A stretch of 37,920 bases of DNA from Gammaproteobacteria bacterium (GTDB taxonomy: Bacteria > Pseudomonadota > Gammaproteobacteria > Xanthomonadales > SZUA-36), in assembly GCA_024275935.1 (NCBI GenBank), contig JAJRYF010000015.1:1-37920 (forward strand). The letters run 5' to 3'. The translations under genes and the position numbers were made by a program. The first letter of the stretch is position 1. Every line of letters begins with the position of its first letter. Positions 5,231-23,797 of the stretch are shown here, piece after piece. The notes below the pieces were generated by a model. It was not told the origin of the DNA. It did no database searches and worked only from the letters and a program-made list of their open reading frames with translations.

Positions 5231-5326
5231 GCCTGACACTGAATATAGCACACATTGTGGGTATTGCGTGTTTCTATTGTTGGGCAGGGGGGGCTTCTGG
5301 AAAGTTAGTCGTAAGCGGAAACTCCC

Positions 5327-5383
5327 GGTGCATCCGCTTTGCTTGACAGCACCCTACGGTACTTTATTTTTCTGTAGGATGCT
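5327..5383. repeat. Dispersed palindromic repeat unit B, 3' of secA
   Basis: This unit contains GGTGCATCCGCTTTGCTTGAC followed by AGCACCCTAC, a decayed form of the common GGTGCGTCCGCTT...GACGCACC palindrome. AGCACCCTAC (5348-5357) also pairs with GTAGGATGCT (5374-5383) at 9 of 10 positions. The core resembles 14841-14876. It starts 16 bp beyond the secA stop codon and may serve as a 3'-end structure for secA mRNA. Confidence 0.55.
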
Positions 5384-5398
5384 TGAGCATATGCTGAC

Positions 5399-8095
5399 TT
5401 AGGTTAGCTTACCGTGGCATTGCTTGAATTTCTTGCCAGAACCACAGGGGCAAGGTTCGTTACGCCCAACTTTGCGTCCCTCGCGGACGAATGTCTCGTT
5501 ACCATCAATAGCAGCATCCGGCGCTGCTCCTATAGCCGATGCTTGGGCGTGCTGGAATTCCATATCACTTGCGGTTTTATTGCGCTCATCTACGGCTGCA
5601 ACATCTGCTTCTGCCTGCACCTCTACTCTGGCCAGTATTTTCACAACTTCCTGGCGGAAAGTGTCCAGCATATCGGTGAACATTTCAAAGGATTCTTTTT
5701 TGTATTCCTGGGTTGGCTTCTTCTGCGCGTATGAGCGCAAGCCAATGCCCTGACGCAAGTAATCCATATTTGCCAAATGGTCTTTCCACTGAGAATCGAG
5801 CACATTTAACATTAGCGCTTTCTCAAAATGACGCATAACCTCAGTTCCAGCTTCTTCCTCTTTGGCTGCAAAGAATTTCTCTACTTCAGTCCATACTCGG
5901 CTTTGAATAGTCTCGGTATCAAGCTGATCTTCATCTAGCCAGGAGCTGACCGGAACTTTAATCATGTATTCGCCAGCCAGGGCTTTTTCCAGGCCCTCGA
6001 TATCCCATTGCTCATCAATGCTACCGGGAGGAACATATTGTGCAAGAAAATCGTCAAATACCATTTCTTTGAAGTCTGCAACCATTTTTTCAACTTCACT
6101 GGCTGCCATTAATTCGTCTCGTTGCTCATAGATGACACGGCGCTGGTCATTAGCCACATCATCATATTCCAGCAGGTGCTTACGCATGTCGAAGTTATGC
6201 CCTTCAACCTTGCGTTGGGCGTTTTCTATGGCTTTAGATACCCATGGGTGTTCAATTGCTTCATTTTCTTCCATGCCGATACGCTTCATCATGGCCGCCA
6301 TCCTGTCGGACGCGAATATCCGCATCAGACTATCTTCCAGAGAAAGATAGAAGCGTGATGAGCCTGCGTCTCCCTGACGACCGGAACGACCGCGCAACTG
6401 GTTGTCAATCCGGCGTGACTCATGCCGCTCGGTACCGATAATGTGTAAACCACCAGCCTCCAAAACCTGTTGGTGACGATCTTGCCAGGCAGTTTTTATG
6501 CTTGCTATTTTGTCATCATTGGCAGCCTTACCAAGATCGCGAATTTCAGCATCAAGGTTGCCACCCAAAACGATATCCGTACCCCTGCCCGCCATATTAG
6601 TGGCGATGGTGATAGCACCGGGGCGGCCAGCATTTTCCACAATCAGGGCTTCGCGTTCGTGCTGTTTGGCGTTTAGAACTTCATGTTTAATGCCGGCTTT
6701 TTTCAGCTTATTAGCGATTAATTCTGAGGTTTCGATAGAGGTTGTGCCTACCAGTGCTGGTTGACCGCGCTCAATACAGTCTTTTACATCTTCGATAATA
6801 GCTTTGTATTTTTCATCAGCAGTCAGGAAAATCAAATCTCCGCGATCTTCACGAACCATTGGCTGGTTAGTTGGAATAACTACCACTTCCAGACCGTAAA
6901 TTGACTGAAATTCAAATGCTTCGGTATCTGCAGTACCGGTCATACCCGAAAGCTTGTCGTATAGTCGGAAGTAATTCTGAAAGGTTATCGCTGCCAGAGT
7001 TTGGTTTTCACGCTGTATGGGCACGCTTTCTTTGGCTTCAATAGCTTGATGCAAACCGTCCGACCAGCGCCGCCCAGAGAGCGTTCTGCCAGTAAACTCG
7101 TCAACAATAATAACTTCGCCGTCTTTAACAATATAATCAACATCCTTGCTAAACAGATGTTCGGCTCGCAAACCGGCGTTCAGATGATGCACCAAAGACA
7201 AGTTCTGCGCCTGATAGAGGCTATCTTCCGGACCAATTAGTCCCTGTTTAACCATCAAGCCTTCTACTTTAGACATACCTTCTTCGGTGAGGTATATCTG
7301 CTTGGTTTTCTCGTCCACGGTGAAATCACCGGGGCCGTCTTCTTCTTTTTGAGGTTCTAGATGCGGGATCAACTTATGAATTTTCACATAAAGGTGTTGG
7401 CTTTCGTCAGCCGGGCCGGAAATAATTAACGGAGTACGGGCTTCGTCAATCAAAATCGAGTCGACTTCATCAACTACTGCAAAGAACTGACCACGCTGGA
7501 CTTTTTCATCCATACTGAAGGCCATATTATCGCGTAGGTAATCAAAGCCGAATTCGTTGTTGGTGCCGTAGGTAATATCAGAGGCATACGCAACCCGCTT
7601 GGCTGCCGCTGTCATACCTGGAACCACCACGCCAACTGTAAGCCCCAGGGCTTCAAATACCGGCTGCATCCAATCAGCATCACGCTGGGCAAGGTAGTCA
7701 TTAACTGTAACTATATGCACGCCTTTTTTAGGTATCGCATTTAGATAGGCAGCCAGGGTGGACATAAGGGTTTTGCCCTCACCTGTTTTCATTTCTGAAA
7801 TCTTGCCTTGGTGTAAAACCATGCCGCCAATCATTTGTACATCGTAGTGCCGCAGGCCCAGAGTTCGATTTGAGGCCTCGCGAACTACTGCAAAGGCTTC
7901 AGCCAGAAGGCTGTCCAAATCTTCGCCCTTTTCAAAACGCTGCCGAAAATCATCAGTTTTTGCTTTGAGTTCAGCGTCATCAAGAGCCTGCATCTGGACC
8001 TCGAAATCGCTTATTTGCACAACATCTTTGCGCATTTTCTTCAACAAGCGGTCATTTCGACTGCCAACAAATTTGGTAATAAGATTATTCAGCAT
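5399..8095 (-). CDS. secA: Preprotein translocase ATPase SecA
   Basis: This 898-aa motor drives post-translational export of proteins through SecYEG. Nucleotide-binding domain 1 has Walker A MKTGEGKT at residues 102-109 and the DEVD box at 209-212. The preprotein cross-linking domain, NBD2 ([10 protein letters not shown], then [11 protein letters not shown]) and the helical wing and scaffold follow. The C-terminal tail carries the zinc-binding SEC-C motif [13 protein letters not shown], used to contact SecB. The length is normal. The start is the only in-frame Met consistent with the conserved N-terminus ([16 protein letters not shown]), but no clear Shine-Dalgarno sequence precedes it. No secM-like gene is present; an M23 peptidase gene lies 132 bp upstream instead, the order seen in Pseudomonas. 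Confidence 0.98.
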
Positions 8096-21017: not shown

Positions 21018-22445
21018 TTAGTAGCGGTAATGATCTGGCTTATATGGGCCATCAACGCTAACACCAATATATTCAGCCTGGTCAGGAGTCAGCCTGGTTA
21101 AATGCGCATTGATTCGCTGCAGGTGTAAAATAGCGACTTTTTCGTCCAGATGCTTAGGTAGTGTGTACACATCTTTACCGTAATTACCGCCCCGCTGCCA
21201 TAATTCCAGTTGCGCCAACACCTGATTAGTAAAGGAGTTAGACATAACAAAACTAGGATGACCGGTGGCACAACCAAGGTTTACCAGACGACCTTTAGCC
21301 AACAGGATAATCCGCTTGCCATCGGGAAAGATTACATGATCGACCTGATCTTTAATATTTACCCATTCGTATTTTTCCAGACCAGCAACATCAATCTCAT
21401 TATCAAAGTGACCGATGTTGCACACAATCGCTTCATTGCGCATTCTCAACATATGCGCTTCAGTGATTACATTATAGTTACCGGTAGCGGTCACCACGAT
21501 ATCAATCTGGTCGATTACATCGTCTACAGTAACCACCCGGAAACCTTCCATTGCCGCTTGTAATGCGCAAATCGGGTCTATCTCGGTTATCACTACAGTA
21601 GCGCCAAGCCCACGCAGAGATTGGGCGCAACCCTTACCAACATCGCCATAGCCACAAACTAGGGCGACTTTACCAGCAATCATTACATCGGTAGCTCGTT
21701 TGATACCATCAACCAATGACTCACGGCAACCATATAAATTATCGAACTTGGATTTGGTGACTGAATCGTTTACATTGATCGCTGGAAACGGCAGCCGACC
21801 TTCATCACGCAAGCGATATAAACGATTTACGCCAGTTGTGGTTTCTTCAGTAACACCCTGAATGTTTTTAAGAATATTGCTATACCAGCCAGGCTTATTG
21901 ACCAACTGCGCGCGGATGGACTTATACAAGGCCACTTCTTCCTCGCTGTCAGGGTTATCCAACACCGATAAATCAGTTTCGGCTTGGGTACCCAACATAA
22001 CCAACATGGTGGCATCGCCGCCGTCATCCAAAATCAGATTCGGGGTGCCGCCATCGTGCCAGTCCATCATCCGGTGGGTGTAGTCCCAATACTCATCCAG
22101 AGTTTCGCCCTTATAAGCAAACACTGGTATTCCCTGATCGGCAATAGCTGCTGCTGCATGATCTTGAGTTGAATATATATTGCACGACACCCAACGAACT
22201 TCAGCACCCAGGGCAATCAGGGTTTCAATTAGCACGGCGGTCTGAATAGTCATATGCAAAGAACCCGCAATGCGAGCGCCCTTTAATGGCTTGGAATCGC
22301 CATATTCAGCTTGTAAAGCCATCAAACCTGGCATTTCGGACTCAGCAATACCAATTTCCTTATGTCCCCACTCGGCCAGGCTAATATCTTTAATCAGGTA
22401 ATCTTGTTTATCAGTTGTTGATGTATTCATAGGTAGTTTCTCCAA
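21018..22445 (-). CDS. ahcY: Adenosylhomocysteinase (SAH hydrolase)
   Basis: This 475-aa NAD-dependent enzyme splits S-adenosylhomocysteine into homocysteine and adenosine, relieving product inhibition of methyltransferases. Conserved segments include [36 protein letters not shown], the Rossmann motif [16 protein letters not shown], and the C-terminal KPDHYRY that closes the NAD site of the neighbouring subunit. The length is that of the longer bacterial form. GGAG lies about 9 nt before the ATG at 22445; a second ATG five codons downstream is possible. metK is the next gene upstream on the same strand, and the whole 176-bp gap between them is taken up by a long palindrome. No SAH riboswitch pattern was seen in the leader. 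Confidence 0.97.
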
Positions 22446-22460
22446 AAAGTAATAATATTA

Positions 22461-22621
22461 GGAGTCTCTGGTTTATTCTGGGTGAAGCAGATTGAGATTT
22501 ATAATTTTCAAGAGCAAGGCGGTAAGTGCTAGTAATAGCAACGCTATTGCTAGTACTTGCCAACGCAGCTATTGAAAATTATAGGCTCAAGATGCTCATT
22601 CACGAATAGATCAGAGGCTCC
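22461..22621. repeat. Giant near-perfect palindrome filling the metK-ahcY gap
   Basis: Two arms of about 79 bp (22461-22539 and 22543-22621) are inverted copies separated by only AAC. By eye about three quarters of aligned positions match. The best blocks are GGAG-CTCTG-T-TATTC at the ends, TATAATTTTCAA in the middle and AAGT-CTAG-AATAGC at the tip. In these blocks all six single-base mismatches would be G-U pairs in a plus-strand RNA and A-C in a minus-strand RNA. The right arm ends at the metK stop codon and the left arm 15 bp before the ahcY ATG. TTA flanks both ends, so a MITE-like insertion is possible; a structured RNA is the alternative. Confidence 0.8.
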
Positions 22622-23797
22622 TTACAGGCCAGCGAGAGATCTTAATTGCTCGGCGCGATCAGTTTGTTCCCAGCTAAATGCTCCGGTATCGGCATTATAG
22701 GTTCGGCCAAAATGGCCATAGGCGGCGGTTTGCCGGTAAATAGGTTTGATTAAGTCCAGCATTTGAATAATCCCGTATGGAGTCAGGTCAAACTGCTCGT
22801 TAATCAACTTGCCAATAAGCTCAACCGGAACCTTTTCGGTGCCAAATGTTTCTACCGAAACCGAGGTTGGCTCGGCTACGCCAATAGCATAGGAAATTTG
22901 AATTTCGCAGCGATCTGCAAGCCCGGCGGCAACAATATTTTTAGCTACATAACGGCCAGCATAAGTTGCCGAACGATCTACTTTTGATGGGTCTTTGCCG
23001 GAAAATGCACCGCCACCATGCCGAGCCATGCCGCCATAGGTATCGACGATAATTTTCCGCCCGGTCAAACCTGCATCACCAACCGGACCACCAATTACAA
23101 AACGACCGGTAGGGTTAATGTGATATTTGGTGTCGCTACTTAGCCACTGCGCTGGTAACACCGGATCAATAATCTCGGTGCGTACCAGTTCTTCCAAATC
23201 TGACATGGAAATATCTTTTGAATGCTGGGTAGAAAGTACTACCGCGTCTATGCCCACAGGCTTGCCATCCTCATAGCGGAAGGTCAGCTGCGATTTGGCA
23301 TCTGGGCGCAAGTAAGCTTTACCATCATCCAGATTGCGACGAACCCAAGCTTGGCGCTTGACCAACTGGTGGGAGTAGTGAATTGGTGCTGGCATTAACA
23401 CCTCGGTTTCATTACTGGCATAGCCAAACATCAAGCCCTGATCACCAGCGCCCTGGGCTTTGGCTTCCTCGCGATCAACCCCACTATTAATATCACCAGA
23501 TTGCTTGCCAATTATATTTATAATTCCACAGGTCTTGCCATCGTAGCCCATCTCCGATGAGGTGTAGCCGATGTCGCAGATTACTCCGCGAATCAGGTCT
23601 TCCAGATCTACCCAGGCAGAGGTTGTGATTTCACCGCCAACGATAGCTACCCCGGTTTTTACAAAGGTTTCACAGGCAACCCGTGCTTTAGGATCGAGCT
23701 CCAAAATAGCATCAAGAATGGCATCGGATATCTGATCTGCCATTTTGTCAGGATGACCCTCAGAAACGGACTCAGAAGTAAATTGAATACTGCTCAT
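22622..23797 (-). CDS. metK: S-adenosylmethionine synthetase
   Basis: This 391-aa enzyme makes S-adenosylmethionine from methionine and ATP. All three repeated domains are present, with the signatures [20 protein letters not shown] at the N-terminus, [12 protein letters not shown] near residue 117, and [23 protein letters not shown] near 260. The length is standard. The start follows the conserved N-terminus; the only purine-rich stretch upstream (AAGAGA) is 11-12 nt from the ATG and lies in the 3' arm of a perfect 9-bp inverted repeat, so translation may be sensitive to that hairpin. It lies 167 bp downstream of the Mrp operon and upstream of ahcY on the same strand, and should act with AhcY in the activated-methyl cycle. 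Confidence 0.98.

Follow-up and report, generated by a model that had tools for sequence, protein, structure and literature searches.

The 161-bp palindrome between metK and ahcY is a MITE-like insertion, one copy of a small mobile repeat. Taken together, the data are best explained by a MITE-like insertion with a conserved structured core whose fold is selected on one strand, and we regard this explanation as very probable.

Results

In the window (the whole 37,920-nucleotide stretch of DNA analysed here), the gap between the two genes, whose identities were confirmed by Pfam, contains an imperfect palindrome (22461-22621) with a 3-nt AAC tip. It begins at the metK stop codon, ends some 20 bp short of the ahcY ribosome-binding site and has TTA at both borders; read in reverse complement, the right-hand TTA is the metK stop codon TAA (Table 1). 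An earlier sequence-only reading had described a palindrome of about 160 bp filling this gap, and its coordinates, AAC tip, TTA borders and position were all correct. The arm identity of about 75% given there agrees with the value obtained when small gaps were allowed (identity at 57 of the 75 positions aligned outside the tip, 76%); without gaps, 48 of 79 positions are identical (61%), and no other ungapped palindrome of equal size in the window reaches even 40/79.

The plus-strand RNA folds with -92.4 kcal/mol (z -14.8; none of 200 shuffles was as good) and the minus-strand RNA with -57.8 kcal/mol (z -8.1), and thus the fold is far beyond chance. The metK-ahcY message would carry the minus strand, which folds more weakly. 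The six single-base mismatches in the best-paired blocks had been read as all of the G-U type in a plus-strand RNA. Over the arms as a whole, 10 mismatches are of the G-U type on the plus strand and five of the A-C type, four of the latter in or beside the unpaired internal loop; the plus-strand fold has 10 G-U among its 70 pairs.

Table 1. Coordinates of the element, its parts and the flanking genes in the window
Feature	Position	Strand	Basis or remark
ahcY, adenosylhomocysteinase, flanking gene outside the element	21018..22430	-	Pfam
Target site duplication TTA, left copy	22458..22460	.	Family consensus 4 bp YTAR, here 3 bp preserved
Whole MITE-like hairpin element, A-type ends, single-core form	22461..22621	+	Model R1 match 1-161, E 1.5e-46
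Left terminal inverted repeat GGAGTCTCTGGTTTATTC	22461..22478	+	End comparison among copies
GA, 5' half of tandem G-A mismatch opposite 22591-22592	22490..22491	+	Sheared pairing inferred
Conserved structured core	22500..22586	+	Model R2: 80.7 bits, E 1.3e-18 on +; 31.8 bits on -
CAAGGCG, 5' side of conserved internal loop	22515..22521	+	Alignments of copies
Tip stem GTAATAGC-AAC-GCTATTGC with conserved U-G pair	22532..22550	+	U-G in 30/31 copies
CAACGCAG, 3' side of conserved internal loop	22561..22568	+	AACG..G conserved though outside the search pattern
Right terminal inverted repeat GGAGCCTCTGATCTATTC	22604..22621	-	End comparison among copies
Target site duplication TTA, right copy	22622..22624	.	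metK stop codon TAA, reverse complemented
metK, S-adenosylmethionine synthetase, flanking gene outside the element	22622..23797	-	Pfam

A BLAST search of the 161 bp against the 2.42-Mb MAG of the window found whole and truncated copies at 17 distinct places, and further copies, up to 95% identical and adjoining unrelated genes, are present in three sister genomes. Moreover, model R1 matched in 21 of 39 genomes of the family. The ends of the A-type elements are conserved, with terminal inverted repeats of about 18 bp (GGARNCTCTGATYTATTC), and are flanked by 4-bp target duplications, of which 36 of 74 were exact and 19 had one mismatch, while 5 were of 3 bp. The duplication consensus is YTAR, which is fitted by 91 of 148 flanks; the duplication of the window copy is a degenerate form of it, with the 3-bp TTA instead of the 4-bp YTAR of the family. 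Dispersed copies at unrelated sites, terminal inverted repeats, a target duplication and an element-free site in relatives together identify the repeat as MITE-like, the alternative that the sequence-only reading had offered.

Copies lie beside genes in either orientation: 34 are antisense and 21 sense in tandem gene contexts, and elsewhere 17 are divergent and 17 convergent. A gene-relative orientation bias was considered as a sign of host-level function and set aside, the bias in tandem contexts being weak. Some copies are internally deleted (L023), in tandem (L051) or carry other small repeats, as is expected of mobile repeats. Head-to-tail neighbouring insertions of two elements were seen at L051 769-1089 and at L210 near 5300-5500, and the small secondary repeats inside copies (L144-L153, L196, L239) read CACCAAnAGTAGGCGCnTTnAGGCGAGRCG and GACTGCAGGGATGCAGGAGGTAGAGCAACGCATGGAGCAGT. 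In genome G172, A-type ends form 58-bp pairs (C4:3316-3373, C6:68588-68645, C15:7241-7298 and C19:31647-31704), which are too short for the core and are an internally deleted form that may still be mobile.

The element was absent from the metK-ahcY gap in all 29 relatives with a readable gap, including two sister genomes. The spacing between the aligned genes is 53 and 68 bp in these two sisters and about 44-157 bp in other relatives, compared with 194 bp at the window locus. Therefore, the window copy is a lineage-specific insertion, which kept the metK stop codon through its target duplication. Eight more distant relatives in the family (L292, L294, L305, L306 and L312-L315) carry a SAH riboswitch (RF01057) in this gap, and no Rfam match was found in the gap at the window locus or in its two sister genomes; the riboswitch seems to have been lost in the genus of the window genome.

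The interior of the element is conserved as a structure. When 31 full copies, taken from eight genomes, were aligned, 45 consensus pairs emerged, 22 of them with double-sided changes, and the tip stem with its U-G pair (30 of 31) and the loop motifs around CAAGGC and AACGCAG are near-invariant. The core folds into a hairpin whose stem is interrupted by two internal loops, one conserved and asymmetric (CAAGGC/CAACGCAG) and the other small, and whose tip is fixed. Scanning a genome collection with one loop side and the tip as the pattern gave at least 115 matches; the tip and CAAG columns were chosen by this pattern and are on their own not evidence of conservation, but the opposite loop side, AACG..G, is conserved among the listed matches although it is absent from the pattern. 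Across 38 diverse cores with several end types, a three-helix structure was recovered in which 87% of cells are paired; double-sided changes occur in 269 cells, compared with 92 after shuffling and 66-96 in the slid controls. No family in Rfam 15 scored above its gathering score for the element, and a permissive search gave sub-threshold matches only; no paper describing the core was found in a search conducted mostly outside subscription journals. In the two-core elements of L134-L142, the conserved loop sequence (TGCAACGC, AACAACG) could also pair differently, since a near-perfect complement of it (GTGTTGCA/GCGTTGCA, CGTTGTT) lies downstream.

A single transition in a palindrome produces a G-U mismatch on one strand and an A-C mismatch on the other, with equal chance for either in the absence of selection. 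Among 127 hairpins, whose arms were aligned with a score blind to this difference, we counted 743 mismatches of the G-U type versus 380 of the A-C type (96 versus 17 elements); these and the strand counts below are raw counts from copies related by descent and are not fully independent. When cores were oriented by the loop motif only, 111 of 126 non-redundant cores folded better on the strand that the motif defines (p 5e-17), with a median advantage of about 10 kcal/mol; the 126 include a few chance matches in coding DNA, which count against the bias. Consensus pairs of the subfamilies showed G-U to A-C ratios of 11:1, 3:2, 9:0 and 6:2 (29:5 in total). Departures of single copies from their subfamily consensus were less biased (70:37), suggesting that selection acts chiefly in those lineages from which new copies arise. 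The earlier hint of selection for the plus-strand fold is supported for the repeat family as a whole and not for the metK-ahcY operon in particular.

Among the elements that contain this core, the terminal repeats are of at least eight types and the target duplications of at least two, and the core is present either once or as two inverted copies. The end types include GGARNCTCTGAT (YTAR target) and GGGNACCTCTATTAAT, the B-type, with exact duplications in 18 of 25 cases at AT-rich 4-bp targets unlike YTAR; further ends around the core are TATACCTCGAAAGG, TATACCCGTAGCG, TAATACCATTCCGC, ATACCAATTTGATTAA, CTAGTGTGCTGTCCCG and AGTGTCCTGTCTGG. Larger elements contain two inverted cores, one inward from each end. 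The complete, single-contig genome G183 carries 22 near-identical 263-bp two-core elements with identical terminal inverted repeats (ends CTAAGACAAACGATAAC...; for example C1 160157-160419; loci L353-L376), which we read as inserted at CTAG-like targets with duplication of TA, and two-core elements of about 265 bp are also present in G018. Another core-bearing family, with ends TAGGGCCTGTTAACACTA (L140-L143, L364, L373), serves in G183 as an insertion target of the 263-bp element. Since elements with unrelated terminal repeats and other duplications share the core, it is a module associated with several transposition systems.

Model R2 matched in 92 of 274 sampled Gammaproteobacteria (about a third), representing 75 of 222 genera, where the match numbers per genome among scored candidates are often lower bounds, and in 84 of 349 genomes of a phylum-wide sample. 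Outside the Gammaproteobacteria, nearly all matches fell in many genomes of one family, which is probably Mariprofundaceae as judged by comparison with the genomes of the pattern scan. Carriers among the matches listed include Psychromonas hadalis, Colwellia, Endozoicomonas acroporae, Sedimenticola selenatireducens DSM 17993, Hydrogenovibrio, Methylophaga, Thiotrichales, Chromatiales and Mariprofundaceae. Viral contigs, plasmids and phages gave no match of the element.

In none of the genomes examined, the complete G183 among them, did a transposase gene lie between matching ends, and searches with PF05598 and PF01609 together with scans for terminal-repeat pairs detected no autonomous IS partner. 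A 1.27-kb pair in L227, considered as an autonomous element, was rejected: it encloses an ordinary membrane-protein gene and represents two facing elements. In G183, no terminal-repeat pair encloses a transposase despite the 22 near-identical copies, which are a recent burst with no partner in sight. Repeated IS copies tend to drop out of MAG assemblies, although G183 is a single contig, and a partner may have been lost or left unassembled.

Discussion

The compensatory changes and the strand-biased G-U pairs, as a statistical pattern, indicate that selection has acted on the fold in those lineages that produce new copies. We propose that a non-autonomous element inserted after the metK stop codon in the window lineage, duplicating the TTA of a YTAR-like target. 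Elements of this type probably moved by means of an IS5-type DDE transposase supplied in trans; since no transposase with the same ends was found, it is the similarity of target sites that points to IS5. The varied elements would likewise depend on DDE transposases acting in trans. Such an element combines ordinary ends with a conserved structured interior, one strand of which folds into a long hairpin, and the core is a module joined with several transposition systems, alone or as an inverted pair. The fold would then act as RNA in transcripts running through a copy, where the core might process or insulate the read-through transcript, allowing insertions in crowded intergenic DNA to be tolerated. 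This is the least certain step, and we put it forward tentatively, at rather less than an even chance; that the core makes insertions tolerable is a guess.

Other explanations have to be weighed against this proposal. An RNA with a regulatory or antisense role in the metK-ahcY message specifically, as the sequence-only reading had suggested, would fit the location between two SAM-cycle genes and the strong fold on the antisense strand, and a known regulator, the SAH riboswitch, occupies the gap in some relatives. However, the element is private to the window genome at this position, being missing there in all 29 relatives; it is not the SAH riboswitch, the gap has no Rfam match at the window locus or in the two sisters, and the same element adjoins unrelated genes in both orientations. 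As a conserved feature such a regulator is already refuted, and in any specific form we consider it extremely improbable.

An ordinary MITE could also have its palindromic interior kept by DNA processes only, such as template switching between the arms or a cruciform that joins the ends, with no RNA function. The anatomy of terminal repeats and target duplications agrees with this, and hairpin-templated repair would yield compensatory changes without selection on RNA. Such processes are strand-symmetric, yet G-U exceeded A-C mismatches 2:1 over the 127 hairpins and the great majority of non-redundant cores favoured one motif-defined strand; the conserved unpaired loop motifs are also left unexplained, and we therefore find this account unlikely. 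Alternatively, the fold may act as single-stranded DNA, the folded core strand being recognised by a transposase or a replication-linked enzyme, in the way that HUH transposases and integron integrases recognise folded strands. Strand specificity and the tandem G-A mismatches are compatible with this, in inverted pairs each end has a core lying inward of it, and no transposase with matching ends was found. On the other hand, target duplications of 2-4 bp and varied terminal repeats point to cut-and-paste DDE transposition on double strands, and IS200/IS605 elements are not known to make a target duplication, unlike the elements here; we doubt that this account is correct. For the same reasons, target duplications and variable terminal repeats, integron attC sites and IS200/IS605 were set aside as models of folded-strand logic. 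We consider a folded RNA the most likely form in which the core acts, and single-stranded DNA a possible one.

It is conceivable, although we would not yet call it probable, that the core is an undescribed, portable structured RNA module, carried in MITEs by several unrelated bacterial transposition systems in Gammaproteobacteria and a further lineage (probably Zetaproteobacteria), and that its transcript from one strand is advantageous. The advantage might lie, for example, in insulating or processing read-through transcripts or in binding a host protein. The usual view of MITEs is that they are passive remnants of insertion sequences, selected at their ends only, whereas here the middle is conserved and the ends change, and the fold is apparently selected on one strand. 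Should the core function as RNA, it would be a widespread, unannotated structured element, expected in very many transcripts, and would offer a direct route to what makes small mobile elements tolerable or successful. A further lesson is that palindromes between operon genes can mimic regulatory RNAs.

The target duplication of IS5 is YTAR (PMC10359306). The A-type elements share it at the family level, the window copy having a degenerate form, and differ from the IS5 family in that the window element has no transposase gene and none with the same ends was found. The core itself is not tied to IS5, because in the B-type relatives the targets are other AT-rich 4-bp sites, and the G183 family appears to duplicate TA. 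With ERIC/RU-1, YPAL/RU-2, NEMIS/Correia and RUP, the element shares the form of a 100-170-bp non-coding, mostly intergenic palindrome that has terminal inverted repeats with TA or short duplications and a stable RNA fold. E. coli genomes carry ERIC, and the window element had no match in 5,426 E. coli genomes, which argues indirectly against homology to ERIC/RU-1. The difference from bacterial MITEs is that one structured core is common to elements with different terminal repeats and duplications, in Gammaproteobacteria and a second lineage; the reviews on bacterial MITEs that were consulted contain no description of a core module shared across MITEs with different ends. In Candidatus Thiomargarita nelsonii, long-hairpin MITEs (the dsrA intron P9 hairpin repeat) occur on more than 100 contigs with TATAG direct repeats, and no parental IS was found for them (PMC4853749). 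This repeat is, by description, likewise a long intergenic hairpin and could be a member of the same class. In terms of function, the nearest precedents would be ERIC and NEMIS, for which effects at the transcript level have been reported or proposed: the effect of ERIC depends on its orientation, and NEMIS RNA has been proposed to be cut by RNase III (PMC2229807).
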